A DNA stretch of 53,189 nucleotides from a filamentous cyanobacterium CCT1 (lineage in GTDB: Bacteria; Cyanobacteriota; Cyanobacteriia; Phormidesmidales; Phormidesmidaceae), in the NCBI GenBank assembly GCA_003017855.1, contig PYER01000011.1, positions 1 to 53,189 of the forward strand, written 5' to 3'. The notes below the pieces were generated by a model, which was not told the DNA's origin, ran no database searches, and worked only from the letters and a program-made list of their open reading frames with translations. The position numbers and the translations under genes are program-made. Shown piece after piece: positions 10,112 to 40,288 of this stretch (the stretch's first letter is position 1; each line of letters begins with the position of its first letter).

Positions 10112-10120
10112 CCCCAGACC

Positions 10121-10628: not shown

Positions 10629-10702
10629 CGGGATGTAGCGCAGCTTGGTAGCGCGCCTGCTTTGGGAGCAGGATGTCGCAGGTTCAAATCCTGTCATCCC
10701 GA
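10629..10702 (+). tRNA. tRNA-Pro (anticodon TGG)
   Basis: A complete cloverleaf of 74 nt. The acceptor arm CGGGATG pairs with CATCCCG. The anticodon stem CCTGC/GCAGG encloses the loop TTTGGGA, giving anticodon TGG. The T-loop is GGTTCAAATCC. The discriminator is A and the CCA end is not encoded. Confidence 0.97.
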
Positions 10703-10857
10703 TTTTGAATCTAGGAGCTTTGCCTGGGCGGTTGTCACGACTGGCACAGAGCGTTATGCAAATGGCCTTTAGTCTGTAGTATCTATAGTCAGTAATTCAG
10801 TCATCATTGACGCTCATCTGCCCGACCCCCTCTATCGTTAACTCTGACGCAACTCCT

Positions 10858-24725: not shown

Positions 24726-24947
24726 ATGAAACTGGTTGTCCACAAAGACGACGATGCTCTGTACCTGCGGCTAGACGATACAGCTATTGTCGAATTTGAA
24801 GAGGTCAGTGACGGAATTATTCTTGACTACAACGCTGACGGCAAGGTGGTCGGCATCGAAATGCTTTACGTCAGCCAACGCAGCCCCAATTCCTGGCAAC
24901 AGATTTTTGTGAGTTTAACCATAAGCTTACCAAGTATGGAAGCATAA
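24726..24947 (+). pseudogene. DUF2283 gene cut at its 3' end by the transposon
   Basis: The first 59 codons are a typical DUF2283 protein (MKLVVHKDDDALYLRLDD... EVSDGIILDYNADGKVVGIEMLYVSQ). At 24908 the Tn7-like element begins, and the frame then reads 12 transposon-encoded codons to a new stop at 24947. Removing the element and one ATTTT copy joins codon 60 to sequence at 40189, which reads ILLKTTYI and stops at 40210. The original gene therefore had 67 codons. The core domain is intact, so a modified protein may still be made. DUF2283 function is unknown. Confidence 0.85.
24903..24907. repeat. Target-site duplication, left copy (ATTTT)
   Basis: The five bases just outside the left TGTG terminus, identical to 40184-40188 at the right end. 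Five-base duplications are the rule for Tn7-like elements. Confidence 0.9.
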
Positions 24948-25051
24948 AGGGACCTCACAAAGCTCTCGATTCATTGTCATCTCGTCAGCTGTCTGACGCC
25001 TTATGGAAGCATAAGTTTACCAAGAGTACAGTTTGGAAGCATAAGCTTACC
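24913..25051 (+). repeat. Left-end site array (four TnsB-type sites)
   Basis: Four related 17-19-bp sites: 24913-24931 (terminal, GTTTAACCATAAGCTTACC), 24938-24954 (diverged), 25005-25021 and 25035-25051 (GGAAGCATAAGCTTACC). All point the same way and are unevenly spaced, as in the left end of Tn7. They are assumed to bind the TnsB part of TnsAB. Confidence 0.85.
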
Positions 25052-25091
25052 GAAAGTTCGAGAGCTACTGCCCCGTATCCTTCAATCAAAC

Positions 25092-25128
25092 ATGGCCTGG
25101 ACGCTAAGAAACTTAACGTCCAGGCCAT
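25092..25128. terminator. Long perfect hairpin inside the left end
   Basis: A 12-bp stem (ATGGCCTGGACG with its complement at 25117-25128), then one mismatch and four more pairs (TAAG/CTTA) around the loop AAA. A TTTCT tail follows on the plus strand. It lies 40 bp inside the last left-end site and may block transcription entering from the host. Confidence 0.6.
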
Positions 25129-25245
25129 TTCTATAGCTTCTATAGCGGTTCTCGATGGCGTAACGAACCTAGTAATACTTGGCAACACATATATTGCACG
25201 AGCAGCTTGATGTTGAGCCGGGGTCTATAAGCTGTCAGGAGGCTT

Positions 25246-25515
25246 ATGGCCAGAGAAGAAGACTTTACGACAGTCAAGGCAACTCGGAGGAGACCCCAAA
25301 CCGTTCCCTTCCCATTGATCAAGCTTAACAGTCATCCTAATAACGATGAATGTGAACCTTACCAGTGTGAGCTAGCCAGGAGCATTCCCATAATGCCTCA
25401 TTCAATAGCCCTTTATGCAATGCCAAGAAATCGACTTAATAAATCCAATACCTTTGCCAATTTTTTAGCAAGCTTACATAAAGGGGGTTTGGGGGATGCC
25501 AATTTAGAGGACTGA
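25246..25515 (+). CDS. Possible small protein in the left-end region
   Basis: An 89-codon frame preceded by AGGAGG three bases before the ATG. The sequence (MAREEDFTTVKATRRRPQ...) matches nothing I know. Its tail is read through a AAAGGGGGTTTGGGGGAT stretch that looks like a common intergenic cyanobacterial repeat. Coding status is doubtful. Confidence 0.2.
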   Translation: MAREEDFTTVKATRRRPQTVPFPLIKLNSHPNNDECEPYQCELARSIPIMPHSIALYAMPRNRLNKSNTFANFLASLHKGGLGDANLED

Positions 25516-25676
25516 GAACTTTAAGAACGGAGGAATTGAACTCTTTTCATAGTCCTAGCTCTCCATTACTGCTCAAGGACTGCAGTCAAAGCTTCTTTCG
25601 TTGAGTAACTTGCAACCATTTTTTTATTAAACCTATCTCTTTGAGAGAGTTGCACAGAGCGAGTTGCCTAGTCATT

Positions 25677-25915
25677 GGCTAAGCCTGGCCGTGATTCGCA
25701 CTGCCTTGCAACATGCATTTCGACTGCATAATGTGCCGCATTTGTAGACTTTCCGAATAATGGTTTCCGAATAATGGTTTCCGAATAATGGAACTATTAT
25801 GGAAAACCTCCTCATGGCTAAGCCTGGCCGTGATTCGCACTGCTTTGCAACATGCATTCGACTGCATAATGTGCCGCATTTGTAAACTTTCCGAATAATG
25901 GTATCAGAATAATGG
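25677..25915 (+). repeat. Two ~88-bp direct repeats with 14-bp tandem units
   Basis: Copies at 25677-25764 and 25816-25902 differ by only a few bases (start GGCTAAGCCTGGCCGTGATT, end GCATTTGTARACTTTCCG). Each runs into tandem copies of the 14-mer TTTCCGAATAATGG: three exact units at 25750-25791 after copy 1; one exact and one decayed unit at 25888-25915 after copy 2. They lie in the 1.2-kb gene-poor region in front of tnsAB. Function unknown; iteron-type regulator sites or unequal-crossover products are possible. Confidence 0.85.
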
Positions 25916-26193
25916 AACCCATAAAATACATCCCTAACACATCCCCATAGTTTTTGTTAACTTAAAACCATTTTTTCCGGAATTCATAAAGTATAATTAA
26001 AGCCTGAAACCCTTAAGCATCAGTAGTTTTAGCTCATTAATTTTAGAAAAAGACAAACGATTAAGTAGAAATCAAGGACAAAGTAAACCTTAAGACATGG
26101 ACCTTATTGCTATTAATTAGGATGCCTGGATTTGCCCGATACAAGCAAAAATAATCCCTTCATTTGCGTGCTTAACATAATTTATTGAAAAGA

Positions 26194-26220
26194 TTGACTA
26201 GCGCTTTTTGATCAGATAAT
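26194..26220 (+). promoter_or_regulatory. Possible tnsAB promoter
   Basis: TTGACT (26194-26199) and GATAAT (26215-26220) with a 15-bp spacer, slightly short. They lie 26 bp before the tnsAB start, so the leader would be very short. Confidence 0.4.
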
Positions 26221-26246
26221 GTTTCTCGATATTGAGCGGAGAAGCT

Positions 26247-28958
26247 ATGCTAAGCCAACTAGAATACAATTCTTGGTGCAGTCGAAACAATCTCTCGATC
26301 GAGGCAAAAGAAGAGATCAACAAAATAAGAGCATCTCAACCTGCTCGAAAGGTTGGAGGTGGTTATAAAAACGTGTGTGGACAATATCCAAGTCGAAAGA
26401 TGGGTGTTTCCATTCAGTTCGAGTCTCACAAGGTTGAACTACCAATACTATACAAACTTGAATACGACGATAGCGTGCTGGAGTATTACGATCAGCCGAA
26501 CCAGATCAAGTTGCTTTCCGAAACTGCTCAAGGTACCAAAAGGGCATACCTTACAACTCCTGACTTTTTTGTGATTTGGCAAGATAGCGCAGGATGGATA
26601 GAGTGTAAGACCGAAAAAGATCTGGAAAAACTCCAATCGAAAAACCCAAGACGGTTTTCTTTAGGGAATGACCAGCAATGGCATTATCTTCCAGGTGAAG
26701 TATATGCCGCAAAACTGGGACTCCATTTTCGAGTTTGGTCAGATTCAGATATTAATTGGATCCTATACAGGAATTTAATTTTCCTTGACGATTACTTTTC
26801 CCAAAACGAAATAGATGAAGAGGAAAAAAGTCTCCTGATAACATTGATTTCTAGAAACCCTGGCATGAGCTTGAATGAATTATTTAACCATGAACATAAT
26901 TTTTCTAAAGATTTAGTGTATACCTCTGTTGCTCGAAGTGAAATATATATTGACCTGAATAGTGCACCAATAGTAGAGCCTGAAAAATGCCTTCTCTTTG
27001 CTAACAAGGAAGCAGCAATAGCTTACAGAATTAGCATTGACTCAATGAGCCATCTTCCAAAGCCACAAATTCCTCTGATCAAACTTCAATCGGGAGAAAA
27101 GCTATTTTATGAAAATCAAGAGCTAACAATTCTCCTTATTGGCTCTGAGAGCGTTTTCCTTAAAGATGGAAACCATAATTCCCTTGAATTAAAAATCTCC
27201 GAAATAGAGCTTTTGATCACAGCAGGAAAAATCAAATCACTAGGATCTCAATTAGAGTCACTAAATGAAAGTAGGGTTTTTGAGTTCTTGTCTACAGCAA
27301 GCAAGAATGATTTAGCAACAGCTAACATGCGTTTTAACTATATTCAAGGGAATATTGAAGGAGATTACTCACCAGAAACAGTAAGAAAATGGAAGAGACG
27401 CTTTAAACTGGCCGAAAAAGAGCATGGGAACGGATTTATCGGCTTGCTCCCTAGAAATCATAGGAAAGGAAATAGAACAAGAAAAATATCCGAAGAAAAA
27501 ATAATTTCAATGAACCAGATTATCGACCAAGAGTATGAGACTTTTAAGCAGCAGTCAATTATGTCATCCTATAGTCATTTTGTTCGCATTCAAGGGAATC
27601 AAGAAATATCTATTGATGACATCCCATGCTACAAAACATTTGCTCAAGAGATCAAGAAAAGGCCTATGTATGAGAAAGAAATAAAAAGAAGAGGCCATAG
27701 GGCTGCGTATAAACATAGTGAATTTTATTACGAGTTAAGTTTTAGCGTACCTAGACATGGAGATAGACCACTTGAGATTGGACACATAGACCATACAGAA
27801 TTAGATATAGAACTTAAATGCTCTAGCACAGGAAAAAACTTAGGTAAACCATGGCTGACACTGTTAACAGATGCTAAAACAAGGAGAATTCTAGCTATCT
27901 ATATAACTTTTGATCCACCATCATATCGTTCCTGCATGATGATCATTAGAGTATGCATTCAAAGAAATGGTCGATTGCCGCAGACAATTGTCACTGATAA
28001 CGGCGCTGAGTTCCATAGTATTTATTATGAAACTCTCCTAACTTATTTAGGTTCAACAATCAAGTATAGACCACCATCCAAATCACGATTTAGCTCGGTT
28101 TGTGAACGTTTATTTGGCACTTCCTCTAAACAGCTAATTTACAACTTGTCTGGAAACACTCAAATCACAAAAGACGTTAGAGTAACCACAAAATATAATA
28201 ATCCTAAAGAATTAGCCACGTGGAATTTAGGCGATTTGTATATCTATTTCAGCCTTTGGGCATACGAAATTTATGATCAGATTACTCACAGTTCTCTTGG
28301 AATTTCCCCTCAAGAAGAATGGCAAATTGGTATAGCAAAATTTGGCTCTAGGGAACATAAGTTTATAGTATATGACAAAAACTTGAAAATTCTTACTATG
28401 CCTGGGACAAGAAAAGGTACTGCCAGAGTCCGAGCAGGTAAAGGTATTCAAATTAAAAATATTCACTATTGGGCCAATGATTTTAGGGATCCTGCATTAG
28501 AAGGAGCAGATGTTGACGTTCGATATGATCCGTTCGATAGAGGGATAGCTTATGCGTTTCTGAAGGGTCGATGGGTTGAGTGTAAAAGTGCTCAATACAG
28601 CACTTTTCAAGGAAGGTCAGAAAAAGAAATAGAAATGGCTTCAGCCGAATATCGTAAGAGAAATGAAAGAAGCAATAAGAACTTGAAGCTCAGTGCCTCG
28701 GCAATGGGTAAATTCTTGAAGGAGATTGAAGTCGAAGAAAGCTTGCAAAGACAACGGCTCAAAGACTTAGAAAGCCAGCGAATTTTAAAGAGTTTAGAAG
28801 GAGATGTTTTCTTAGAAAAAGATTCTAATAGCTTTCTTGAAGCTGAAAAAAGTAATGAAGCTTCAGACTCAATAACCTTGGATGCGTACAACAAGGACGA
28901 AAAAGAAGAAGTTTATGATGATAACTCTTCAATGTTTCAACCCATGGAGCTTATTTAG
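26247..28958 (+). CDS. tnsAB: Fused TnsA-TnsB transposase
   Basis: A 903-residue fusion that cuts both strands at the transposon ends and joins them to the target. The start is ATG 26247 with GGAG six bases before it; an in-frame TTG lies 15 bp upstream. Residues ~1-230 are a TnsA endonuclease: Glu59, and the PD-(D/E)xK site Asp106 (TTPDFFVIW), Glu119 and Lys121 (WIECKT). Helix-turn-helix DNA-binding regions follow (SPETVRKWKRRF). The RNase H-like TnsB core has Asp515 (GHIDHTE), Asp584 (TDNGAEF) and Glu620 (VCERLFG), giving a D-x35-E. A basic, coiled-coil tail may contact TnsC. Fusion of A and B is known in some Tn7-like and type I-B CAST elements. AT-rich codon use, unlike the host. Confidence 0.95.
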   Translation: MLSQLEYNSWCSRNNLSIEAKEEINKIRASQPARKVGGGYKNVCGQYPSRKMGVSIQFESHKVELPILYKLEYDDSVLEYYDQPNQIKLLSETAQGTKRAYLTTPDFFVIWQDSAGWIECKTEKDLEKLQSKNPRRFSLGNDQQWHYLPGEVYAAKLGLHFRVWSDSDINWILYRNLIFLDDYFSQNEIDEEEKSLLITLISRNPGMSLNELFNHEHNFSKDLVYTSVARSEIYIDLNSAPIVEPEKCLLFANKEAAIAYRISIDSMSHLPKPQIPLIKLQSGEKLFYENQELTILLIGSESVFLKDGNHNSLELKISEIELLITAGKIKSLGSQLESLNESRVFEFLSTASKNDLATANMRFNYIQGNIEGDYSPETVRKWKRRFKLAEKEHGNGFIGLLPRNHRKGNRTRKISEEKIISMNQIIDQEYETFKQQSIMSSYSHFVRIQGNQEISIDDIPCYKTFAQEIKKRPMYEKEIKRRGHRAAYKHSEFYYELSFSVPRHGDRPLEIGHIDHTELDIELKCSSTGKNLGKPWLTLLTDAKTRRILAIYITFDPPSYRSCMMIIRVCIQRNGRLPQTIVTDNGAEFHSIYYETLLTYLGSTIKYRPPSKSRFSSVCERLFGTSSKQLIYNLSGNTQITKDVRVTTKYNNPKELATWNLGDLYIYFSLWAYEIYDQITHSSLGISPQEEWQIGIAKFGSREHKFIVYDKNLKILTMPGTRKGTARVRAGKGIQIKNIHYWANDFRDPALEGADVDVRYDPFDRGIAYAFLKGRWVECKSAQYSTFQGRSEKEIEMASAEYRKRNERSNKNLKLSASAMGKFLKEIEVEESLQRQRLKDLESQRILKSLEGDVFLEKDSNSFLEAEKSNEASDSITLDAYNKDEKEEVYDDNSSMFQPMELI

Positions 28959-28960
28959 GT

Positions 28961-30103
28961 ATGAATCGACTATTTCCTGAATACTTATTAAAAGCCGATA
29001 AGATTGAAAGAAGTCAATATTTTCAAGGCGTCATCGTAAACCACATAAAGTTGTCAGAAGTCATCCAGAAGGTTTACAAATTAATAGTTAGCCCAAGTTC
29101 TCAGTCTTCAATCATTATCTTAATCGGACCTACAGGAGCTGGAAAGTCTACTTTAATACCAAGAATTGAAAAAATGCTGATTGCAAGATCTCTTGAAGAC
29201 AAGGACTTTCATCCAGGAAGGATACCTGTTGTTTCGCTGGAAGCAGCCTCACCATCTTCAGGAAATTTTGATTGGAAAGATTATCACTATCGTGCTCTTG
29301 TAAAAATGGAAGAGCCATTAATTGACTATAAAATCGACTATTCAACTCAAGAAATTTCTAGAGATGCAAATGGAAAGATAAAAGTCAAATCTGGTACATC
29401 GACAAACGTACTACGACATGCTCACGAAAACGCTTTACTATATCGTCGGCCTTATGCGGTTATTGTAGATGAGGCACAGCACATTCAGAAAATGTCTAGT
29501 GGTAGACGACTGCAAGATAATATGGACTGTTTAAAGTCCATTGCAAATATCACTAAAATTCCTCATGTTTTAATTGGAACCTATGAGCTTCTAATAATGC
29601 TCAATCTAAGTGCGCAGCTAAGTAGGAGAAGTCAAGAAGTCCATTTTTCAAGATATAAAGCTGATTTAGAAAGCGATAAAAAGAATTTTCGTGCAGCTCT
29701 CCAGTCTTTATCTCTTCATTATATGCCTATGGTTGAAGAAAATAATTTAGATTTTGAGTGGGAATATTGTTATGAGAGATCATTGGGATGCATTGGTATA
29801 TTAAAAGACTGGCTTAATAGAGCATTAAACAATGCGTTGGATGAAGGAAGCGAAAAAATAACAAAGCGTCACTTAGAAAATACAGCTTTAACAGTTGCTC
29901 AATGCCGGGAAATTGCCACTGAAATTACTGAGGGTGAGAAATTGCTAGAGGAGCCTCAATCAAAAAATGATGAGCTTAGAACTCTTTTAGGTTTAGGCAA
30001 AAAGTCCATTCAAGAACCCGAAAAAGTACCTACCTCTGATAGAAAAGGTAGGAGAGTAGGAACTTCTAAGCCAGTCCGTAGAAAGAGCCATGTTGATGAA
30101 TGA
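28961..30103 (+). CDS. tnsC: AAA+ regulator TnsC
   Basis: A 380-residue ATPase that links target selection (TniQ/TnsD) to the transposase. Walker A is GPTGAGKST at residues 56-64 and Walker B is AVIVDEAQHI, with Asp170-Glu171. The sensor-1 region is HVLIGTYELLIML. The C-terminal 60 residues are charged and end in the basic RKGRRVGTSKPVRRKS. The gene begins 2 bp after the tnsAB stop and overlaps tniQ-1, so the block is one operon. Confidence 0.95.
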   Translation: MNRLFPEYLLKADKIERSQYFQGVIVNHIKLSEVIQKVYKLIVSPSSQSSIIILIGPTGAGKSTLIPRIEKMLIARSLEDKDFHPGRIPVVSLEAASPSSGNFDWKDYHYRALVKMEEPLIDYKIDYSTQEISRDANGKIKVKSGTSTNVLRHAHENALLYRRPYAVIVDEAQHIQKMSSGRRLQDNMDCLKSIANITKIPHVLIGTYELLIMLNLSAQLSRRSQEVHFSRYKADLESDKKNFRAALQSLSLHYMPMVEENNLDFEWEYCYERSLGCIGILKDWLNRALNNALDEGSEKITKRHLENTALTVAQCREIATEITEGEKLLEEPQSKNDELRTLLGLGKKSIQEPEKVPTSDRKGRRVGTSKPVRRKSHVDE

Positions 30104-31478
30104 AAGTCATTCTTTTAATAGCGCTGACGTTAACCAAAACCAACAAGTTAGCAGACTCTATTCGATACAACCTATTGATTGTGGTCTTGAAAACGTTGAA
30201 AGTCTAACTAGCTACATTTCAAGACTAGCCGTTGCACATTGTGTTCCTGCAGGTCTCTTGATGACGAAGGAAATCACTCCTTTAATTAAGCCTAAGTATA
30301 ACTTTGCTGGAGAACCTCAGGGAGGGCGTTTAGGAAGAACATTTGCGAATGAAACTAGTGCACTTAATGGATATGGTAGTTGGGCAACTGAAGTAGTTAA
30401 TGTGATTGAGAAGCTTACTTGTAGAACAAATATATCTAAACTAACCTTTCTCAATTGGAGGAAAGTCTTATCTAATCGGAAACTTCTAAAGCAGAATAGA
30501 GCCTGGTATCCCCTTTGTTTTAGCGAATTACTTGATGAGTCTAAAGTCTTGTATGAGCCTCTTAATTGGAGTATAGAAATACTCCAATTATGTTCTACTC
30601 ACAGAACTCCTCTTTCAAACATTTGCCCTCATTGTGAAAAAGAAAACAGTCCACTTGCATGGTATAGCAGGCCAGGGTTTTGTTCAAAATGTCGAGGGTG
30701 GTTAGGTATCGATGCTTATAGATCTAAATTTCCTAATCTGAGATTTAAAGTAGTTAAAGATGAAGAGCAACTTCACTGCATTGAATGCGTGAGGGATTTG
30801 CTTTGCCTGTCGCCTGATAGCTTTTATGATGACGTTAGAGTTTCTATCGCGAGCCATTTGAATCATTTTTCAAAGGATATATCGAGAGACAAATATTTAT
30901 GTCTAGCTCAAGTCCTAGATGTTAGCGTTCAGGCAGTGAGGGAGTGGTGTAAAGGCAAAAGTACTCCAACTTTAGCCTCTATGATAAAAATTTGCTACAA
31001 GTTTAAAATTGATTTTTCTACTTTATTCGAACCCATTTATGGTGTGGCTGTCAATGAAAATTGCGAGTTAGAGAAAAATCATCAAGATTCAAGTAAAAAA
31101 TTAGTTTCTCGTAGATCTATCGAGAAGCAGACATTAATCAAATTAGCCTTAGAAGCAGCACTTCTCGAGAATCCACCAAAATCATTGAATAGTGTTGCTA
31201 ATAAATCAGGAATGCATCCGAAAACGATGAGATTTTACGAAAGAAGCTTGTGCAAGCAGGTATCCAATAATTATGCTCGGTTTAGAACTCAGAAGAAAGA
31301 TGAACGAATAGAAGGTCTCTTACAGGAGATGAAAAAAATTGCTCAATCTCTCTACAGCAAGGGAATTATACCTACCCCAAGCCGTATAGCACCTCACATG
31401 AGTAATCCTGCATCGATTTTGACTGTAGAGTCGAGAAAAAAGCTAGAGCAGTTTCTTCAAGAGAATGAGTGGTTTTGA
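30096..31478 (+). CDS. tniQ: TniQ/TnsD-family target selector 1
   Basis: A 460-residue target-selection protein whose start overlaps the tnsC stop (ATG 30096; another ATG at 30090). The TniQ domain opens with ESLTSYISRLAVAHCVPAGLL. A zinc-binding region follows with CSTHRTPLSNICPHC and FCSKC (about residues 172-205). Further on is an XRE-like helix-turn-helix (LCLAQVLDVSVQAVREWCKGKSTPTLASMI), and a second possible DNA-binding part (SVANKSGMHPKTMRFYERSL). The long C-terminal DNA-binding region makes it TnsD-like rather than a short Cascade-type TniQ. Confidence 0.9.
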   Translation: MNESHSFNSADVNQNQQVSRLYSIQPIDCGLENVESLTSYISRLAVAHCVPAGLLMTKEITPLIKPKYNFAGEPQGGRLGRTFANETSALNGYGSWATEVVNVIEKLTCRTNISKLTFLNWRKVLSNRKLLKQNRAWYPLCFSELLDESKVLYEPLNWSIEILQLCSTHRTPLSNICPHCEKENSPLAWYSRPGFCSKCRGWLGIDAYRSKFPNLRFKVVKDEEQLHCIECVRDLLCLSPDSFYDDVRVSIASHLNHFSKDISRDKYLCLAQVLDVSVQAVREWCKGKSTPTLASMIKICYKFKIDFSTLFEPIYGVAVNENCELEKNHQDSSKKLVSRRSIEKQTLIKLALEAALLENPPKSLNSVANKSGMHPKTMRFYERSLCKQVSNNYARFRTQKKDERIEGLLQEMKKIAQSLYSKGIIPTPSRIAPHMSNPASILTVESRKKLEQFLQENEWF

Positions 31479-31542
31479 GGTGTTGCTATAATGTCTCGAC
31501 CCATGTCCAAATTCAATTGTAAGTTTAGACTTAGGCACAGTA

Positions 31543-32862
31543 ATGATGGGTGAAACACCGAGGTCTGTTAGTAGGCTCTACTATTTTCTCCCTAAAGGTG
31601 TTGATACTACCTACATTGAAGGCCTAACTAGCTTCATAGGCCGCTTAGCTATGGCTCATTGTGTCCCAGCAGGTGCATTACTTGAAAACTTAGTGCAGCC
31701 TATATTAGGGAAAGAGCATGGAAGTGCAACGCTGCATAAAATTTATAACTATACTGCTGCTATAAATGGGCCAGGTACAATGGCTCAAGACTTAATTTCC
31801 TGTTTAGAGAAGCTTACACACCAGCATGCCCTTTCCAAGACTACTTTAGTACCTTGGGCTGAGGTGCTTTCTACAAGACAACTCTTACGCTCCCACAGGG
31901 CTTGGTGCCCCTGCTGTTTACAAGAACTTAGGAGTCAAGGGCTTGAGATTTACGAGGCGTTGCTTTGGACAGTCGAGGCTGTCCAAGTTTGCTCTAGACA
32001 TCGAATTTATCTACAAGAGAACTGTATTACCTGTGGCGAATCAAGCATCTTTTTGACTTGGCAGGGGCGACCGGGTTATTGCTCTAATTGCTTGTCATGG
32101 CTAGGCTTAGAGCAGAGCCAATTTATTGCAAAAGAAGAGCGTAGAGACGATGAATACTTAAGCCGACAGCTTTGGATCTCAACCTCTGTAGGTGAAGTTT
32201 TGGCTGCTGACAGTAGCGTGCTTAAACCTTCCAGAGAAAAGTTGGCTAAAGGATTATCGAAAGCTGTCACTCATTTTGCTGATGGTAATGTCGCAGGGCT
32301 GGCAAGGCAGCTAGGGGTACCTAGAAATACTCTTTGGCTTTGGTGTAACGGGAAAAACAATCCTACTCTTAGTTCCGTATTAGATATTTGCTATAGATTA
32401 GGAATCAGTCTGTTAGATCTTTTCTGCAATGAGGATCTAGAGTTTCCTCCACGAACTGTGCTGAAGCCACCACTTCTTCATGTGCCTGAAGCCTATAGGC
32501 AAAATCCGACGAAATTTCCTAAGGAAGTGATCGAGAAGCATCTTCGAATACTGCTATCTCTTGAAGATGGCCCTTTTCCCTCTTTAGAGGAGGTTGCACG
32601 GCAACTCAAACTAGATAGACGAACTATACTGCGACACTTACCAGAGCTTAGCCATAAGATATCGAATCGCTACAGGACCTACCGGCGTGAAGCCAAAGAG
32701 GCCAATATAAGAGATGCTTGTGAGGATATAAGGCAAATCGTCACCGAACTACGAAAAACGGACCAATATCCTTCAGAGGCACGAGTCGCATCCCTCATGG
32801 CCCATCCCGGGTTTTTACGCTACAAGGTTGTTCGAAGTGCTCTTAAGGCAGCACAAAGTTAA
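31543..32862 (+). CDS. tniQ: TniQ/TnsD-family target selector 2
   Basis: A 439-residue paralogue of the preceding gene with the same plan: IEGLTSFIGRLAMAHCVPAGALL at the N-terminus, zinc ligands in CSRHRIYLQENCITC and YCSNC, an XRE-like helix-turn-helix (GLARQLGVPRNTLWLWCNGKNNPTLSSVL), and a C-terminal HTH-like part (SLEEVARQLKLDRRTILRHLPEL). It is clearly related to, but well diverged from, selector 1. 64 bp separate the two. One of the pair may recognise the tRNA-Ala site; which one cannot be told from the sequence. Confidence 0.9.
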   Translation: MMGETPRSVSRLYYFLPKGVDTTYIEGLTSFIGRLAMAHCVPAGALLENLVQPILGKEHGSATLHKIYNYTAAINGPGTMAQDLISCLEKLTHQHALSKTTLVPWAEVLSTRQLLRSHRAWCPCCLQELRSQGLEIYEALLWTVEAVQVCSRHRIYLQENCITCGESSIFLTWQGRPGYCSNCLSWLGLEQSQFIAKEERRDDEYLSRQLWISTSVGEVLAADSSVLKPSREKLAKGLSKAVTHFADGNVAGLARQLGVPRNTLWLWCNGKNNPTLSSVLDICYRLGISLLDLFCNEDLEFPPRTVLKPPLLHVPEAYRQNPTKFPKEVIEKHLRILLSLEDGPFPSLEEVARQLKLDRRTILRHLPELSHKISNRYRTYRREAKEANIRDACEDIRQIVTELRKTDQYPSEARVASLMAHPGFLRYKVVRSALKAAQS

Positions 32863-32964
32863 ACGTATTTCTGCTAATTTTCGTGATTTGAATCTTGTCC
32901 TGATAGTTCCCACACGTGCGATGCCTCTTCTGCAGCAGTAAGCCCGCATAAGCTATCGAGGAGG

Positions 32965-33270
32965 TCATTTGTCAACGTTTCGGTAGGCGGGATGCAATCG
33001 CGACTCTCCTACGCTTTCGAGTTGAGGAACATCTAACTTAGTAGGGTCAGCCGGCTCTCCGGGTTTCATAATGTATGGCTGAGGTTCCCAGTCAAAGAGC
33101 GTTGGGGCATAACCTATCCCATTTCCCTTCCATGTGGTAGAAGCTTCAGCCAACCTCTCCGAAAAGCCTTCAACAAGCTCTTTGGCTTCGTTAGTCTGGC
33201 CTTGCAAGCAGAACTCTGCTACCTTTCCGAGCAAACGATTCATAACGTCATCAAGATCTTCTGCCAACAT
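32965..33270 (-). CDS. Small protein of unknown function (cargo)
   Basis: A 101-residue protein with AGAGG about seven bases before the ATG, so translation is plausible. The first half is helical and acidic (EDLDDVMNRLLGKVAEFCLQGQTNEAKELVEGF). The second half has proline-rich loops (GYAPTLFDWEPQPYIMKPGEPADPTK). No domain recognised. It is the first cargo gene beyond the transposition module, on the opposite strand. Confidence 0.5.
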   Translation of the reverse strand: MLAEDLDDVMNRLLGKVAEFCLQGQTNEAKELVEGFSERLAEASTTWKGNGIGYAPTLFDWEPQPYIMKPGEPADPTKLDVPQLESVGESRLHPAYRNVDK

Positions 33271-33354
33271 GGGGCACCTCTAGCTACTTGATACAAGGGT
33301 ACTCAATTTTCATAAAGTCGTTCAGCTTCAATCTTCACCATGCTCTTCAAAGCT

Positions 33355-33594
33355 TTACTCAGAGGGGCTTTCGAAGTCTACAAAGTAAACTAAAGGCTTG
33401 TCGTAGATTAAGGCAAACTCAAGGAGTTCGACGATGTCGACGCGGCGCTCGCCGGACTCGCACTTGGAAATGAACGATTGAGGGACGCTGAGACGAGCAG
33501 CCACCTGCTGCTGGGTAAGGTTGGCGTCTAAGCGGGCAGCTTTCAGCCGGACGAGGAACTGTTGGTAACGAAGTGAATAGACTGAGCTGCTCAT
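33355..33594 (-). CDS. XRE-family transcription regulator (cargo)
   Basis: A 79-residue single-domain regulator started at MSSSVYSLRYQQF; an in-frame TTG lies 9 bp upstream. The helix-turn-helix is LTQQQVAARLSVPQSFISKCESGERRVDIVELLEFA. Similar small XRE proteins act as antitoxins or controllers of restriction systems. It is divergent from the next gene, and the dyad at 33622-33642 in the shared promoter region is its likely operator. Base composition is closer to the host than to the tns genes. Confidence 0.88.
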   Translation of the reverse strand: MSSSVYSLRYQQFLVRLKAARLDANLTQQQVAARLSVPQSFISKCESGERRVDIVELLEFALIYDKPLVYFVDFESPSE

Positions 33595-33621
33595 GACGAG
33601 CAAGCTACAATCAGCGGTTAG

Positions 33622-33642
33622 AATATCCCAAAATCGGATATT
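33622..33642. promoter_or_regulatory. Dyad operator between divergent cargo genes
   Basis: AATATCC, seven bases, GGATATT: a perfect 7-bp inverted repeat, 27 bp before the XRE gene and 6-18 bp before the possible starts of the divergent gene. Probable binding site of the XRE protein. Confidence 0.65.
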
Positions 33643-33659
33643 TTCAGGTGGCTAGCCCA

Positions 33660-34019
33660 ATGTTGAAACTGTTTGCTGAGTGGACAGGAGAGAAAGGACT
33701 CTCAAAACTATTTTTTCAGTGTTCTTGTTGTGGAGGGGTGATTGATGACTCAGACGCTGCTTTGGCGCTTTATCCAGTTCGAATTAAACCTCGAACACAT
33801 ACCTATGGCATGCCTTCCACTGAGCTGGACGCCTCTACGGTGTACACGGTCCACTCTGGAGTATGTGCTTTCAGAATAAGGAAGTTAGCGATAGAAACCT
33901 ATCAACATATTGAGATAAGGCAGTTATCACAGCTTCTATCCCATCTCATAGAGAATACGAAAGCCTTTGGGGAGACTAGCCCAGAACTTTGGGAAGGTAC
34001 AGATAACGATCTTGAGTAG
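33660..34019 (+). CDS. Unknown protein with a Cys pair (cargo)
   Basis: A 119-residue protein read from ATG 33660; a GTG at 33648 is the alternative. It contains FFQCSCCGGVIDDSD, which could be half of a metal site, and a later single Cys (SGVCAFRI). No family recognised. It is divergent from the XRE gene and presumably controlled by it, a layout seen for toxin-antitoxin or phage-defence pairs. Confidence 0.45.
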   Translation: MLKLFAEWTGEKGLSKLFFQCSCCGGVIDDSDAALALYPVRIKPRTHTYGMPSTELDASTVYTVHSGVCAFRIRKLAIETYQHIEIRQLSQLLSHLIENTKAFGETSPELWEGTDNDLE

Positions 34020-34264
34020 TGACTTTGAGGCGCTTGGCAAAGGGGCACTTAGCGCCGTGGTCATCCCCAGATGCTTAGCTCCCAAGAATCGGGTTGGTTG
34101 ATCGCCTGGCGGCTCCACGCACGACAGGTAAAGTTTTTGCTGAAAAATAAAGAACTCGTTAGCTGAGACTGTATTTAGGACTAGAACGGGAACTATCAGT
34201 GGAAATACCTGCCTTGCGAACGGAGTATTGTGGGTTAGATGGACTAGCGATAAGGATTGAGTGA

Positions 34265-34520
34265 ATGCCGCGCGGCAAGAAGAACGGAGCTAACAGCCAA
34301 CCCAGTAACGGAGCCCACCTGGGTTTAAGCAAACCCTCTGGGCCGCCGCTGACAAGATGCGCGGCCCCATGGATGCTGAGGAGTATAAGCACGTCACTCT
34401 GGGGCTGATCTTCCTCAGGTATATCTCGGATGCATTTCAGGAGCTGTACGATGACCTGGCTGCTAGGGCTGACACCGATTACACAGACCCCCGGGGACCG
34501 CGACGAGTACATGGCGGAGA
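34265..34520 (+). pseudogene. hsdM: hsdM remnant (type I DNA methyltransferase start)
   Basis: Begins MPRGKKNGANSQPSNGAHLG, which with the next segment is the standard start of type I methylase subunits. The frame then shifts, and KMRGPMDAEEYKHVTLGL plus IFLRYISDAFQELYDDLAARAD continues in another frame. After ADTDYTDP the frame shifts again to GDRDEYMAE. The rest of the gene (about 450 residues with the SAM site and NPPY) is missing, so it is dead. Confidence 0.75.
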
Positions 34521-34525
34521 CTAAT

Positions 34526-34828
34526 ATGAGCATGAAGAGGAAGCAATCCTTTAGCATTAAGAATTTACCAAGGGGTGCCAGAAAGGAATTTGAAATCTTT
34601 TCGAGCACACCAAGGATCTGGGGCGAAAAAATAGAATTTCTTCATTTAAGAGACTGGAAAAAATTTTATATGTTTATCCGATATTGTTATAGATACAGAG
34701 TGAATCTATCTGGTGAGGATGTAAAAGATCTTCTACTCGAAACTAATTTTGAAAAAGAATTTGCGATATACCTTTCTGACATTTTTCATCATGGAATAAA
34801 CTTGCTTAAAGTGACTAAAAGTAATTAA
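34526..34828 (+). CDS. Small protein of unknown function (cargo)
   Basis: Exactly at the point where the hsdM remnant breaks, GGCGGAG provides a ribosome-binding site for ATG 34526. The 100-residue protein (MSMKRKQSFSIKNLPRGARKEF... FEKEFAIYLSDIFHHGINLLKV) is basic at the start, rich in aromatic residues, and AT-rich in codon use. No family recognised. It may be a complete small gene or the tail of a larger inserted one. Confidence 0.4.
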   Translation: MSMKRKQSFSIKNLPRGARKEFEIFSSTPRIWGEKIEFLHLRDWKKFYMFIRYCYRYRVNLSGEDVKDLLLETNFEKEFAIYLSDIFHHGINLLKVTKSN

Positions 34829-35448
34829 AACTTGGTTGTTTGGGCTGAATTAGGCAAGGAATTGCTGAACAAATTCAAGTAAATCAATCGATTTGAGCCA
34901 TGGTGGTTACCGATAAGCCTTTTTTAAGGATAACCGATTTGCTAGGAATGTCCTCAGAGTGATATCTGTACCTGACCTGCTGTGAGTATTATTGAACCGT
35001 GGAAAGAATGGATTGAGGAAGGAGCGGGTGATCATGAGCTAATGGGTAGAAAGTGTTGATGAAATAGTGGGCAGTGCGCACTCTATGCCTACAGAGGATG
35101 TCTATGCGGAGGAAATGAGACAGCCAATTGAGTTCGACAGGTAGGCGTTGGTTATGGGCAAGTAGGTGGGGTGATGAACAGTGCTCACTGCCTTAACTTA
35201 CTTAGCCATTAATCTTTAGGTAGGTAATACATGGCGCTCACACTAATAAATCGTTATTAACACTTTAAAGATCTAACAAAAAAATATTTAGAATTCAGCA
35301 GCACAACAATTGTTCAAACCAAAATCAAATTGATTTTAGAAATAACTAGGCTAAAAGCGAAGGGAATGAATTCCTTAATATCTTGAGATCGTTCATAATA
35401 GCAAATATCTAAAGAATCAGTCCAACACTTTCTATGGGGAGATGAAAT
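34829..35448. other. Gene-poor cargo interval
   Basis: 620 bp. Around 35050-35145 a frame without a start reads VESVDEIVGSAHSMPTEDVYAEEM and ends in a stop, which looks like the tail of a lost gene (possibly an antitoxin-like protein). The last 200 bp are very AT-rich and form the upstream region of the TPR gene. Confidence 0.4.
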
Positions 35449-36522
35449 ATGACCACATCAGGCAAGAACCTTCGGCAGCTCGCTCAGGAAGGAAATCCTG
35501 AGGTAATCTCTAATATTTTGAATAGATATTTAAACCCCAAAAAATTCTCGGCAAAAGTTAGAAAAAAAGACACTTTGATTGAGGTCATGGTAGAAGGCAT
35601 CTCTACTCCTCCACAACAGCCTATGGTTGACTTTTTAGTCAAAGGCTTGTCAAGTCTGGAATTGAATGGAATCACTAAAGCAAAAATTTATGGGCGTCAA
35701 GCTGGTGAAGATTTCCCGTCCTGGAGTGAAGAGGTTGTCTTAACTAACCCAGTCAAGCCACTACCAGAAAGAGAGGCCCATAATCAAAAATCTCTTGATC
35801 CTAGTGTCAAGGAAAACGTTGAATTACTACTTAAGAAAGGCCTTGAGCAAAGTCAAGGAAAAAATGAGGATGCAATTAAGACTTACACAGACATAATTAA
35901 CCTCAATCCTATTTGTGCTGAAGCGTATTTCATGAGAGGCTCAAACAAAGTTGCTCTAGATGAAATTCAGTCAGCACTTGAGGATTTTAGTAAAGCTATC
36001 GAAATCAGGCCTGACTATGGACAAGCACATCATGAATACGCCATGGCGCTCTTTGTTGTCAAGGATTTTAGGCGTGCCATTGAGGAAGGTAGTAAAGCCA
36101 TAGATTTAGGTGTAAATTATGCTTCAACATATAATATTCGAGGGGCTGCTTATGAAAGTTTATCAATGTATAAAGAAGCCATAACGGATTTCAGTCAAGC
36201 AATATCAATTGATCCAAGTGAAGGAATATACTACCAGAATCGAAGTCTTGCGTATAGAAAGGATGGTGATATAGAGAAAGCTGAACAAGATTTGTTAGCC
36301 TTAAATAAGCTCACTAAGCAAAACAAGAATCCTGCTAGTCAAGATGCTTTTGCATTCACCTCAGCTCTTCTGTTCAGCTTTCCAATTCTATCTGCAATTC
36401 TAACTATTATTGCCACTTTATTTTTTATGATGATCTGGGCTTCTATGATTCCTTGGTATTTATGGATAATTTTACTTATCATTGCATTTGGTCTTTTTTC
36501 GATGATAAAAAGCAGCACGTGA
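35449..36522 (+). CDS. TPR protein with C-terminal membrane anchor (cargo)
   Basis: A 357-residue protein with GGGGAG seven bases before the ATG. Residues ~5-105 form a domain known from cyanobacterial proteins (LRQLAQEGNPEVISNILNRYL... IYGRQAGEDFPSWSEEVVL). Residues ~125-290 hold about four tetratricopeptide repeats (e.g. AYFMRGSNKVALDEIQSALEDFSKAIEIRPD). Two hydrophobic helices close the protein (ILSAILTIIATLFFMMIWA; YLWIILLIIAFGLFSMI). It is likely a membrane-tethered adaptor; role unknown. It lies in the AT-rich insert between restriction-system remnants. Confidence 0.8.
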   Translation: MTTSGKNLRQLAQEGNPEVISNILNRYLNPKKFSAKVRKKDTLIEVMVEGISTPPQQPMVDFLVKGLSSLELNGITKAKIYGRQAGEDFPSWSEEVVLTNPVKPLPEREAHNQKSLDPSVKENVELLLKKGLEQSQGKNEDAIKTYTDIINLNPICAEAYFMRGSNKVALDEIQSALEDFSKAIEIRPDYGQAHHEYAMALFVVKDFRRAIEEGSKAIDLGVNYASTYNIRGAAYESLSMYKEAITDFSQAISIDPSEGIYYQNRSLAYRKDGDIEKAEQDLLALNKLTKQNKNPASQDAFAFTSALLFSFPILSAILTIIATLFFMMIWASMIPWYLWIILLIIAFGLFSMIKSST

Positions 36523-36873
36523 TAAATATTGCTAATTAGTTTTACCATCTAGGGCGCTCTGATTAAGGTCACCTCCACTATAGGCCTTTCACCTGGGTAT
36601 TTTTCCGGCTTTGAATCTGTTTCAGGGGTATAGCAAAATCTGCCAGGACTTTAAAGAAGTCATTGTTAATGAGTAGAAAATGAGAAGCGTATCTAATTCT
36701 GAATAAAACAAATATCTATCTAAAGCTTTTGATCTTGATACTAACCTGAATTTTATGAATGATCGAAATGACATAAAACTGGCTAAGTCAGTTATCAAAG
36801 AAAGAAGTTTGGACAAAGAATACTTCAAAACTATCCGGAGGAAGCGCGTCACTAAAGTAGAAGGAGACTCTAT
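36523..36873. other. Gene-free interval between TPR and HEPN genes
   Basis: 351 bp, AT-rich. It ends in GAAGGAGAC, a strong ribosome-binding site for the next gene. No RNA or repeat noted. Confidence 0.4.
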
Positions 36874-38301
36874 ATGAGAGCGTACAGTCAACTCGCTGAT
36901 CTAGAAGTACTACTCACTAGCATTCCCGATGAAAAAACCAGAGCTTATGCTGGAGAAGCTATTGCTTCCTATTCTGCTGGTGCATATCGTTCCGCAATCG
37001 TATCAACCTGGATAGCAGTAGTTCTTGATCTGTACCAAAAAGTTCTTTACTTGGATGAGGAATATAGTGATCCGGCTGCTAAAAAGTGTATAGAAAGAAT
37101 AAACAAAATTAGAAATAACAACGATAGGAAGCAAATCGCCGCATGGGAAAGAGAAATCCTGATAAATGCTTACAAGGATATAAAAATTGTTAGTGAAGTG
37201 GAATACGAACATCTAGAAAGAATTCAACAAGATCGCCACAGATGTGCTCATCCTGCCTTAGATAAAGATGGTTTTCTATTTCAGCCTTCACCAGAGCTAG
37301 TTAGAAATCACATCCGAACAGCTACTGAAATCTTACTAAGTCAGCCTGTAATAGTTAGAAAGGCATCTATGGACGCCTTTGAACGTGACATAGAGCATGA
37401 GAATTTTCCCAATACAGAAGATAGGATTGTGAGAGCCCTGCTAGGCAGACACCTTCCCATGTCAAAAGAGTATAGAGTAAGTATAATCAAGTTTTCTCTT
37501 AGGAAAATTCTTCACATTGAAAATGTTGACCAGAAAATTCTCAATAGGTACATAACTGTATTCAAGCACATTTTAGAAGAGTATAGACAAGACTTTGAGG
37601 GCATAGACAATCAGTTTCTGTCAGATCAAATAAAACGAACCAAGGACGAAAGATATTCTTTTTTTGCCGCTCTTCTTTTTCTTGAGCCAAGGCTTTGGGA
37701 TATGTCACCTCCAGATTTGCAGGAAAAATTCTATTCCTATATTAAAAATCAAAATATATTAACCCTCAAGATTTTCACTCTTCATATTTTCGAGATTGAA
37801 AGAGAAAAGCTTTTAATTCTATATGAGCAATCATGGCTAAAAGATGGAAAAGATGCTCAAACCATTTTATATAATTTAACCTCTCATGGTAGAGCGAAAA
37901 GGATAATTCGCACTGACGCAATTTTTATTCAAAAAATTGTGAAACTTACTTTGGATGCTTTCTGTTCGACAGATGCATCTATTTTTTTCGTGGCTGCTGG
38001 CTTGATCAAGTCAGTAATAGCTCTAATGAATAAAGATCATTTAGAGTTGCTATTTGAAATGCTCAGTAGACCAGAGATAAAGGGCAATGAATTAATGATT
38101 GTCCGAATTGGTATTATGGAAAGTGTTTTTCGGGAAACTATCAGCGCGTTTCCCGAAACAATCTCATGCTGGGAAAAATTTTATGAAGATATCGAAAGCA
38201 ATAAGGCTTTATATCCCGGATTGAGCAGGCTAGGTCAACTGATTAATGCATACCCTGAGCATGAAGCAGTAGTCTTTTCTTATGACGATATACCTTTTTA
38301 A
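36874..38301 (+). CDS. HEPN-motif protein, candidate defence RNase (cargo)
   Basis: A 475-residue protein with AGGAGA before its ATG. The N-terminal ~170 residues are helical and carry the HEPN signature Arg121-His-Arg-Cys-Ala-His126 (QQDRHRCAHP, R-x4-H with a polar residue after Arg). The helix AYRSAIVSTWIAVVLDLYQ is typical of the same fold. The remaining 300 residues are all-helical and unrecognised (possibly an effector or sensor part). HEPN domains with this motif are usually RNases in toxin-antitoxin and anti-phage systems. A role in defence is inferred from the motif and from its place in transposon cargo. Confidence 0.7.
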   Translation: MRAYSQLADLEVLLTSIPDEKTRAYAGEAIASYSAGAYRSAIVSTWIAVVLDLYQKVLYLDEEYSDPAAKKCIERINKIRNNNDRKQIAAWEREILINAYKDIKIVSEVEYEHLERIQQDRHRCAHPALDKDGFLFQPSPELVRNHIRTATEILLSQPVIVRKASMDAFERDIEHENFPNTEDRIVRALLGRHLPMSKEYRVSIIKFSLRKILHIENVDQKILNRYITVFKHILEEYRQDFEGIDNQFLSDQIKRTKDERYSFFAALLFLEPRLWDMSPPDLQEKFYSYIKNQNILTLKIFTLHIFEIEREKLLILYEQSWLKDGKDAQTILYNLTSHGRAKRIIRTDAIFIQKIVKLTLDAFCSTDASIFFVAAGLIKSVIALMNKDHLELLFEMLSRPEIKGNELMIVRIGIMESVFRETISAFPETISCWEKFYEDIESNKALYPGLSRLGQLINAYPEHEAVVFSYDDIPF

Positions 38302-38469
38302 GGCGATAAACTTATGCTAAACCTTGAAAATCAGATATTCTTCTACAATATTATGTTGTATTTGTATTAACGATTTCCTATTGTAATTTCAAAAGGCTGT
38401 CAAACCCAAAAAACATGCTGACGTTGATCCAGAAAAATTTCGCCAGATTATCTAAACTCAAATGCCCAT

Positions 38470-39119
38470 ATCTATGAGTCACCACAGCATAACCGATCCG
38501 AGGTTGAAGAAGCCGCCCTCTACTACCTCAACCAACTGGGCTACACCGCCCTCAACGGCCCCACCATCGCCTTCTTTCTGACCAGTTCTTAGTAGACTTT
38601 TGTGAACTGCCCCAGAAAAACCTAGCCCTAGAAGTGCTGCGCAAGCTGCTCAACGACGAGGTAAAAGCGCGACCACGGAAGAACGTGGTTCAGTCCCGCA
38701 ACTTCCCGGAGATGCTGGAAGCCTCTATTCGTCGCTACCAGAACCGGGCGATCACCTCCGCTGAGGTGATTCAGGAGCTGATCAACCTGGCCGGAGAAAT
38801 GCGCGAGGCCAGCCGCCGAGGCATTGACTTGGGCCTGAGCGAGGATGAGCTGGCTTTCTACGACGCCTTAGAGGTGAACGATAGCGCCGTGCAGGTGCTA
38901 GGAGATGAGACGCTGAAGACCATTGCCCAGGAACTGGTCAAGGCGATTCGCGGCAACGTGACGATTGATTGGACGGAGCGGGAAGCGGTGCGGGCGAAGC
39001 TGCGGGTGATGGTGAAGCGGCTGCTGAAGAAGTATGGCTATCCGCCCGATAAGCAGGAGAAGGCAACTCAGACGGTGTTGCAGCAGGCTGAGACCCTGTG
39101 TAAAGACTGGGCGGCTTGA
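38470..39119 (+). pseudogene. hsdR: hsdR remnant (type I restriction subunit, deleted)
   Basis: Two pieces of one gene are joined. 38470-38575 reads [19 protein letters not shown] then [14 protein letters not shown], the amino-terminal segment of HsdR. From 38577, in another frame, comes the HsdR carboxy-terminus: [20 protein letters not shown], then [20 protein letters not shown] and a C-terminal helix bundle with [19 protein letters not shown]. The nuclease and helicase centre (several hundred residues) is missing. The second piece is still an open frame from GTG 38634 (161 codons), but it cannot be a restriction enzyme. GC content is host-like. Confidence 0.85.
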
Positions 39120-39137
39120 GCGGGGAGCCTTCGGGTG

Positions 39138-39443: not shown

Positions 39444-39464
39444 AAGTTCATCCCACCATTAGGC

Positions 39465-39965: not shown

Positions 39966-40063
39966 GGGACTTAGCCCTCAACTATCACTGGGAACATAAT
40001 ACAGTCCGGCACGCGCAACAGTACTAGTGCATTACTGAAATTAGAGGATTCCCAGAGCGAATT

Positions 40064-40178
40064 GAAACCATATCCTTACCGAATTGGAATCATATCCTTA
40101 CCAAAACATGGGAAGCATAAGCGTACCGTGTGGCTTTGGAAGCATAAGCGTACCAAACAGGTACGCTTATGGTTAAAC
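40064..40178. repeat. Right-end site array (five TnsB-type sites)
   Basis: Sites at 40064-40080, 40086-40102, 40111-40127 and 40138-40154 (the last two both GGAAGCATAAGCGTACC), plus the terminal site 40160-40178 on the opposite strand. They are packed every 22-27 bp, as in Tn7R. The last inner site and the terminal site form a 12-bp inverted repeat (CATAAGCGTACC, AAACA, GGTACGCTTATG). Confidence 0.85.
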
Positions 40179-40183
40179 GCACA

Positions 40184-40188
40184 ATTTT
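40184..40188. repeat. Target-site duplication, right copy (ATTTT)
   Basis: Identical to 24903-24907 at the left end. Confidence 0.9.
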
Positions 40189-40215: not shown

Positions 40216-40288
40216 TGGAGCTAAGCGGATTCGAACCGCTGACCCCTTGCATGCCATGCAAGTGCTCTACCAGCTGAGCTATAGCCCC
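40216..40288 (-). tRNA. tRNA-Ala (anticodon GGC)
   Basis: A complete cloverleaf on the minus strand. The acceptor GGGGCTA pairs with TAGCTCC. The anticodon stem CTTGC/GCAAG encloses ATGGCAT, giving anticodon GGC. The T-arm contains GGTTCGAATCC. The discriminator is A and CCA is not encoded. The 3' end faces the transposon 32 bp away. The tRNA itself is undamaged. Confidence 0.97.

Follow-up and report, generated by a model that had tools for sequence, protein, structure and literature searches.

A Tn7-like element of a filamentous cyanobacterium pairs two long TniQ/TnsD proteins, possibly as two target selectors

Introduction

Why would a Tn7-like transposon in which no CRISPR (clustered regularly interspaced short palindromic repeats) genes are found keep two long TniQ proteins side by side? 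The question is raised by an element on contig PYER01000011.1 of the filamentous cyanobacterium CCT1 (GCA_003017855.1), of which we analyzed the whole 53,189-nucleotide stretch, here called the window. One operon holds tnsAB, tnsC, and two tniQ/tnsD genes in this order, whose last two products we name TniQ1 and TniQ2. An earlier note made from the letters of the window, hereafter the original prediction, offered three readings of the second TniQ: it recognizes a second DNA site on its own, it remains from a CRISPR module since lost, or the pair acts together. Our data lean toward the first, namely that the element holds two protein target selectors, TniQ2 homing to a tRNA-Ala gene and TniQ1 reading a different site.

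Such dual pairs were said to be known from type I-B CRISPR-associated transposons (CASTs), which is correct but incomplete. Faure et al. (2023) report 998 dual TniQ-TnsD loci, with two-tnsD pairs among the tandems and independent in situ duplications inferred (PMC10293859); since such pairs are included among the tandem dual loci, the window element belongs to an already published dual TniQ/TnsD kind. Typically, one protein of a dual locus exceeds 400 amino acids (aa) and its partner is substantially smaller (PMC10293859). The two-pathway lifestyle usually rests on two TniQs, and the TnsAB branch includes unstudied non-CRISPR targeting systems (PMC11406308). In the literature searched, we found no paper joining Tn7-like elements, tRNA-Ala, and TniQ.

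Results

Both TniQ genes are real, long, and adjacent, as the original prediction had it, although the start that it gave for the first, 30096, is the second ATG of the open reading frame (ORF; Table 1). The Pfam TniQ domain was found in TniQ1 at 43.7 bits and in TniQ2 at 60.3 bits (cut-off, 27), and the two proteins are 32% identical over 442 aligned columns (E = 6e-67). The XRE-like and zinc regions predicted for both were recovered as well. The matches to helix-turn-helix (HTH) families lie near the cut-off (TniQ1, HTH_3 at 22.6 bits with a cut-off of 23; TniQ2, HTH_26 at 22.8 bits with a cut-off of 22), while the zinc-ligand columns are filled in 8 of 8 cases in TniQ2 and in 7 of 8 in window TniQ1, where Y140 replaces a cysteine. 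The C-terminal module is called an HTH, not a winged helix, because the Pfam HTH matches are weak and the models contain helices only; the winged-helix label was dropped, the HTH_24 match at residues 332 to 369 of TniQ2 falling below the cut-off at E = 0.0025.

For comparison with solved proteins, we used chains of the PDB entries 8v32, 9bw1, and 8fcu, which we take to be from PmcCAST, a type I-B2 CAST. The abstract of PMC12585508 is consistent with this. Both window proteins scored higher against the TnsD chain 8v32_J (TniQ1, 233 bits; TniQ2, 309 bits) than against the short TniQ chain 8fcu_P (136 and 116 bits, respectively). The AlphaFold models, with a predicted local distance difference test (pLDDT) score of 74.0 for TniQ1 and 69.3 for TniQ2, gave the same ranking. 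For TniQ1, 8v32_J came first with a Z score of 25.0 (root mean square deviation [rmsd], 9.6; 420 residues aligned), compared to 22.8 for 8fcu_P (rmsd, 5.0; 295 aligned); for TniQ2, the values were 22.4 (rmsd, 9.1; 423 aligned) and 16.3 (rmsd, 4.9; 283 aligned). Because both models rank the TnsD above the short TniQ over nearly their full length, both proteins resemble the DNA-reading form from end to end. Thus, the designation "TnsD-like" holds by length, architecture, and likeness to 8v32_J but not by the Pfam TnsD domain: PF15978 was listed for neither TniQ at E ≤ 0.1, and a PF15978 profile search over the window genome was empty, as were its controls.

The likeness to known tRNA-linked systems is distributed unequally over the domains of the two proteins. 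As the reference, we used four TnsDs of tRNA-linked elements (8v32_J and those of genomes G042, G185, and G197). Mean core identity to these four was 43% for window TniQ1 and 42% for TniQ2. In the XRE-HTH, the C-terminal HTH, and the C-terminal tail, identity was 22 to 25%, 23 to 31%, and 28 to 30%, respectively, for the TniQ1 proteins of the window's genus (n = 5), and 36 to 40%, 42 to 44%, and 33 to 36% for TniQ2 (n = 4). Measured against 8v32_J, the DNA-binding part of window TniQ1 is identical at 37 of 160 positions and that of TniQ2 at 65 of 161 (P = 0.0012), whereas the cores do not differ (81 of 180 versus 76 of 179; P = 0.67). The DNA-binding part of TniQ2 was likewise more similar to 8v32_J than that of TniQ1 in two relatives, G417 (P = 0.0063) and G428 (P = 0.0099). 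Moreover, two arginines (near positions 379 and 445 in 8v32_J numbering) were present in 9 of 9 TnsD and TniQ2 rows, whereas of 6 TniQ1 rows one has the first and none the second, the rows being hand-chosen. Since the DNA-binding part of TniQ2 is closer to those of tRNA-linked TnsDs than that of TniQ1 and keeps the two arginines, TniQ2 is the likely homing protein and probably reads the tRNA-Ala(GGC) site, to judge from these sequence comparisons. This assignment fits the behavior of CyCAST, in which TnsD by itself homes 30 to 33 nucleotides (nt) downstream of tRNA-Leu and addition of TniQ lowers homing from 0.008% to 0.0006% (PMC10293859).

We then surveyed relatives of the element using TnsC as bait. 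Matches were obtained in 17 of 386 genomes sampled from the phylum (20 places) and, within the order, in 7 of 63 genomes (7 places, of which 6 were additional); a TnsC scan of genome contigs yielded 4 loci, of which those of Nodosilinea sp. WJT8-NPBG4 (L022; here WJT8) and Stenomitos (L024; genome G446) were new, for a total of 28 places. In these 28, tnsC is followed by two adjacent TniQs of more than 430 aa in the window, G417, G428, WJT8, Stenomitos, and G042. At the other places, tnsC is accompanied by a short TniQ, by a single TnsD-like gene, or by none that the window TniQs detect beside it, and the TniQ number could not be scored at several, such as G278, G328, G199, and both small G376 contigs, where the stretch breaks off shortly behind tnsC or behind the first TniQ. 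The window itself, contig C47 in a genome of 6.85 Mb, comes from the genus that also includes G415 and G428, and the pair layout is common to six related elements: those of the window, G417, G428, G415, WJT8, and Stenomitos. In G415, an insertion at the contig end breaks TniQ2 shortly past its start (L044, positions 1 to 229). The first residues of the insertion presumably resemble those of an IS1-type InsA.

All five right ends that are visible lie close to a tRNA-Ala(GGC) gene, at 32 bp in the window, 30 in G417, 36 in G428, 33 in G415, and 32 in Stenomitos; that of WJT8 falls outside the analyzed stretch. Perfect 5-bp duplications flank the elements of the window (ATTTT), G417 (ACTAT), G428 (GCTGC), and G415 (TGCGC), the two ends of the last being on different contigs and linked through the duplication. 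The Stenomitos left end was not found in the 7.2 kb upstream of tnsAB. The constant company of the two genes, adjacent and together in 6 of 6 elements (the G415 TniQ2 being visible only at its start, up to the insertion and the contig end), and the single site shared by 5 of 5 visible insertions could also mean that TniQ1 and TniQ2 form one complex at tRNA-Ala, in which neither suffices alone. Indeed, co-occurrence at one site is half of the outcome that the original prediction had set against a second selector. Nonetheless, the TnsD of CyCAST homes to tRNA-Leu alone and is hampered by TniQ (PMC10293859), the transposon of a Peltigera cyanobiont is described with a TnsABCD complex in an abstract that names no TniQ (PMC12585508), and the DNA-binding part of TniQ1 has diverged from those of the TnsDs of tRNA-linked elements. 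Joint action of the pair, which co-occurrence favors and these points oppose, therefore seems rather unlikely to us.

On two trees, the TniQ1 proteins of the window, G417, G428, G415, WJT8, and Stenomitos form one clade (support, 98/89 and 100/98), and the TniQ pair is thus older than the split between the genus and Stenomitos. A recent tandem duplication was rejected, because TniQ1 and TniQ2 are only 32% identical and TniQ1 groups with its Stenomitos counterpart. The ratio of nonsynonymous to synonymous substitution rates (dN/dS) was 0.175 to 0.378 for TniQ1 (10 pairs), 0.153 to 0.269 for TniQ2 (6 pairs), and 0.191 to 0.253 for TnsC (10 pairs), rough values given that dS is near or above 1 in some pairs. 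By this measure of the coding sequences, TniQ1 is under purifying selection. In the five relatives, TniQ1 is 522 to 529 aa long and contains the HTH module twice, as a repeat (z = 7.2 to 11.6; 0 of 500 shuffles as high).

Window TniQ1, at 462 aa, departs from this pattern. It lacks about 65 residues, which hold an HTH module, so that a single C-terminal HTH module is left, and its Y140 occupies the first zinc-ligand column, in which 36 of 37 TniQ rows have a cysteine. Through these losses, window TniQ1 may, on its sequence, have been weakened or retargeted. Furthermore, TniQ1 evolves faster than TniQ2 in each domain compared, with close relatives 59 to 68% identical to the window in TniQ1 and 78% in TniQ2. 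Such damage and divergence, together with the lowered homing of TnsD in the presence of TniQ in CyCAST (PMC10293859), are what would be seen if TniQ1 now acted mainly as a regulator or in competition for TnsC, or were a selector in decay, with no target of its own. Set against this are a reading frame that is open in 6 of 6 elements, zinc ligands that are complete in the five others, and the low dN/dS; we hold this alternative, too, to be rather unlikely.

The original prediction also stated that neither a cas gene nor an array is present, and this was borne out: the window has no CRISPR-like array (0 k-mers; 279 in the positive control, locus L072), and no cas domain was found in the 8 cargo ORFs scanned, some small ORFs lying outside the scan. 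The scanned cargo ORFs of at least 100 aa in related elements were equally devoid of cas domains (4 of 7 ORFs scanned in L024, 6 of 10 in L056, and 10 ORFs in G417 and G428 combined). At the genome level, Cas6 (PF10040) was detected in 17 of 24 genomes, including that of the window but not G417, G428, G415, or Stenomitos; DevR in 1 of 24 (G127); and Cas1 in 4 of 8, including G415 (with an internal stop) and Stenomitos but not the window's genome, G417, or G428. Cas5 (PF09704) was found in 2 of 11 genomes, neither in the dual-TniQ group. The Cas5 negatives weigh little, because so few genomes matched and the match near a supposed I-B2 CAST was weak (E = 0.0085); this model detects such CASTs poorly, and each Cas model misses some subtypes.

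The idea that TniQ1 is a relic of a CRISPR-Cas module, left over in a former CAST, draws on its position, as TniQ1 sits where G185 has a short TniQ, between tnsC and tnsD, and on the placement of I-B2 and I-D CASTs in the same branch (PMC11406308). However, TniQ1 is long, carries DNA-binding modules, and lies outside the short I-B2 TniQ clade (100/99), and the scanned stretches hold neither a cas domain nor an array. Because TniQ1 is, as far as dN/dS tells, under purifying selection and persists in two genomes, G417 and G428, in which searches for Cas1, Cas5, Cas6, and DevR were all empty, a relic is very unlikely, and we disfavor this part of the original prediction.

A CRISPR array does exist elsewhere in the window's genome, on the 17-kb contig C60 (L072, positions 1419 to 9760), with 25 repeats in two forms beside Cas6 and MobF-type relaxase genes, an arrangement that suggests a plasmid-borne array. 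The 23 spacers, from 24 intervals of which one was excluded as too long, did not match the stretches of the window, Stenomitos (L024), G415 (L044), G417, and G428 meaningfully (best, 17 bp; E = 0.048). The prediction had allowed for cas genes acting in trans, and a Cas6 gene does occur elsewhere in the genome; yet with 0 of 23 spacers matching meaningfully, and with TniQ1 retained in G417 and G428 without Cas1 or Cas6 matches, a role of TniQ1 as an adaptor in trans for a CRISPR effector, or some other protein, of the host is extremely improbable, despite the Cas6 and array on C60 and the Cas1 matches in Stenomitos and G415.

The features of the element are listed in Table 1. Its ends and its duplication, which the original prediction did not give, were set by the TGT...ACA rule and the 5-bp target duplication, which place it at positions 24908 to 40183 (15,276 bp) with ATTTT on either flank; positions 24907 to 24931 pair with 40160 to 40184 as a 25-nt terminal inverted repeat. 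The TnsAB product has TnsA_N and Mu-transpos_C domains above the Pfam cut-off and rve slightly below it, and it matches PDB chain 9bw1_M with 903 bits. An operon of fused tnsA-tnsB, tnsC, and tniQ, TGT...ACA ends, repeated TnsB-type sites, and a 5-bp duplication characterize it as a complete-looking, putatively cut-and-paste Tn7-like element of the cyanobacterial fused-TnsAB branch.

Table 1. Coordinates of the element, its genes, and its attachment site in the window
Feature	Position	Strand	Evidence
Left target duplication, 5 bp, ATTTT	24903..24907		Sequence; script match to right copy
Left end, spaced putative TnsB-type sites at about 24914, 25004, and 25034	24908..25057		Repeat families D1 and D2; terminal inverted repeat I1
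tnsAB fusion, 908 aa from TTG, with an ATG five codons in	26232..28958	+	Pfam and PDB match
tnsC, AAA ATPase, 380 aa	28961..30103	+	TniB/AAA_22; 79 to 80% identity to close relatives
TniQ1, long TniQ/TnsD, 462 aa, putative second selector	30090..31478	+	Pfam TniQ; alignments
TniQ2, long TniQ/TnsD, 439 aa, probable tRNA-Ala reader	31543..32862	+	309 bits to TnsD 8v32_J over 10 to 437; domain identities
Cargo, PADLOC PD-T7-3 match, candidate defense	36874..38301	+	E = 7.5e-39
Cargo, C-terminal fragment of HsdR (type I restriction subunit)	38634..39119	+	PF11867, E = 3.8e-73; REase_I
Right end, closely packed putative TnsB-type sites, terminating ...GTTAAACGCACA	40062..40183		Repeat family D1; inverted repeat I1
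Right target duplication, 5 bp, ATTTT	40184..40188		Sequence comparison with left copy
tRNA-Ala(GGC), attachment gene	40216..40288	-	ARAGORN and Rfam; 32-bp gap from right end to tRNA 3' end

Between the left end and tnsAB, at positions 25676 to 25918, a stretch of roughly 100 nt occurs twice with a spacing of 138 to 139 nt; it contains TTTCCGAATAATGG short repeats and possibly has a regulatory role. As for the cargo, the related G428 element has all three subunit kinds of a type I restriction-modification system (L042, 16768 to 19956; L043, 1053 to 3924); since the window has only an HsdR fragment, the cargo seems to decay in place. Outside the element, a Cyano-1 small RNA (Rfam RF01701, 46.2 bits) is located at positions 7118 to 7187.

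In the wider lineage, elements with two long TniQs are not one group on the TnsC tree. The TnsC of G042 is sister to those of three supposed I-B2 CASTs, G143, G340, and G157 (100/97), and Stenomitos and the window's group fall elsewhere (85/80). The I-B2 label of these three rests on the clade that 8fcu_P makes with their 329-aa TniQs (100/99), the cas evidence being one weak Cas5 match in G340. The G042 element (L056, 7242 to 14121) has TniQs of 437 and 467 aa, adjoins a tRNA-Val(GAC) gene with one end, and has no cas gene found nearby, the nearest Cas1/Cas6 match on its contig being about 1 Mb from tnsC. On one tree, the first of its TniQs, at 437 aa, groups with the short I-B2 TniQs and a single TniQ of 275 aa (94/79), a second tree being without resolution there. 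The G042 element may resemble the form before Cascade uptake.

Plasmids of Calothrix, Nostoc, and Tolypothrix carry elements in which TnsAB and TnsC come with just one TniQ, which is 522 to 527 aa long and has the tandem HTH layout. Because this is the sole TniQ detected in these elements, a tandem-HTH TniQ can be an element's only selector. The Calothrix plasmid element is 5.9 kb long and is bounded by perfect inverted ends of 24 nt and by ATTGT duplications. We do not claim plasmid targeting by TniQ1, as the long plasmid TniQs do not join it with support on the core tree and no shared target was established. The minimal plasmid elements (L080, 4687 to 10633; L081, about 4728 to 10622; L083, 4679 to 10625) have perfect or near-perfect inverted ends of 24 to 27 nt, reminiscent of Tn5469. 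Directly after the right end of the L083 copy, at 10631 to 10947, lies a 317-bp element consisting of ends only, with ATTGC on either side, which is a nonautonomous derivative in tandem. A plasmid of Allocoleopsis (L079) holds a 407-aa TniQ beside annotated type III CRISPR genes.

Discussion

Taken together, our data make it somewhat probable that the element has two protein target selectors. TniQ2 would be the homing TnsD, reading tRNA-Ala(GGC) and recruiting TnsC and TnsAB, and insertion is seen 30 to 36 bp downstream of this gene, with the right end facing the tRNA. TniQ1 would be a diverged TnsD paralogue that engages the same TnsC at a different DNA sequence and so opens a second, spreading route, as CASTs obtain from Cascade.

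Several observations weigh against this conclusion. No copy at a second site was seen: when 63 genomes of the order were scanned with a right-end pattern allowing up to 3 mismatches, the 4 right ends recovered were all at tRNA-Ala(GGC), although the pattern derives from three of these same elements and is blind to ends that have diverged. The Stenomitos TniQ1 and TniQ2 show no significant difference in how closely their DNA-binding parts resemble that of 8v32_J (55 of 161 versus 65 of 161; P = 0.3). The grouping of TniQ2 from the genus and Stenomitos is moderate (80/87), with a third, long-branched row inside, and a constraint keeping all five together was not rejected (approximately unbiased P = 0.32); the support is 93/85 once two rows are dropped. 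The structural models are of middling confidence with large rmsd values, and TniQ1 matches the TnsD only slightly better in Z than the short TniQ. Finally, window TniQ1 has lost a zinc ligand and an HTH module. Of the three readings first offered, a second TniQ that reads its own site is thus the best fitting, albeit one for which the order's genomes supplied no second-site copy.

Compared with PmcCAST (Tn7744, type I-B2) and the type I-D CASTs CyCAST and McCAST, the element shares fused TnsAB, TnsC, a second TniQ gene, and insertion beside a tRNA gene, seen here as placement only. In contrast to these, no Cascade or array was found within it, TniQ1 is long with DNA-binding modules where CASTs have a short Cascade adaptor, and its tRNA is tRNA-Ala instead of tRNA-Val or tRNA-Leu (PMC10293859). 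As in the dual TniQ-TnsD elements of Faure et al., two adjacent tniQ/tnsD genes lie next to tnsC; unlike in the usual dual loci, both proteins exceed 430 aa (PMC10293859). The plasmid elements L080, L081, and L083, with TnsAB, TnsC, and one long tandem-HTH TniQ, resemble the Tn5469-type single-TniQ elements of cyanobacteria (PMC11406308) and differ from the window element in having one selector, no cargo (L080), and no tRNA genes on the plasmid stretches.

The proposed two routes, the 5-bp duplication, and the arrangement of the end sites also recall canonical Tn7 with its TnsD and TnsE. In Tn7, the TnsB sites are spaced at the left end and packed at the right. In the window element, unlike in Tn7, TnsA and TnsB are fused, a tRNA gene replaces glmS, no TnsE match occurred among the scanned ORFs, and tnsAB lies near the left end, far from the attachment gene.

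Within this known kind, our analysis adds the exact ends, the tRNA-Ala(GGC) site, a pair kept across two host lineages, the evidence on the homing TniQ, and the signs of damage in window TniQ1. Should a defined target exist for TniQ1, the modular HTH part of this protein could give protein-programmable targeted insertion. More tentatively, the element could be a protein-only counterpart of CASTs, in which TniQ1 would act as a sequence-specific spreading selector with exchangeable HTH modules setting the target, and long second TnsDs of this sort could be ancestral to the Cascade-adaptor TniQs, an idea that rests on G042, with its TnsC sister to supposed I-B2 CASTs and the grouping of its first TniQ. 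A compact related set, comprising the window, its four genus relatives, and Stenomitos, retains a second long TniQ without CRISPR, and it opens to experiment the site read by a second TnsD and the possible origin of the short CAST adaptor from a full selector through loss of the DNA-binding modules.

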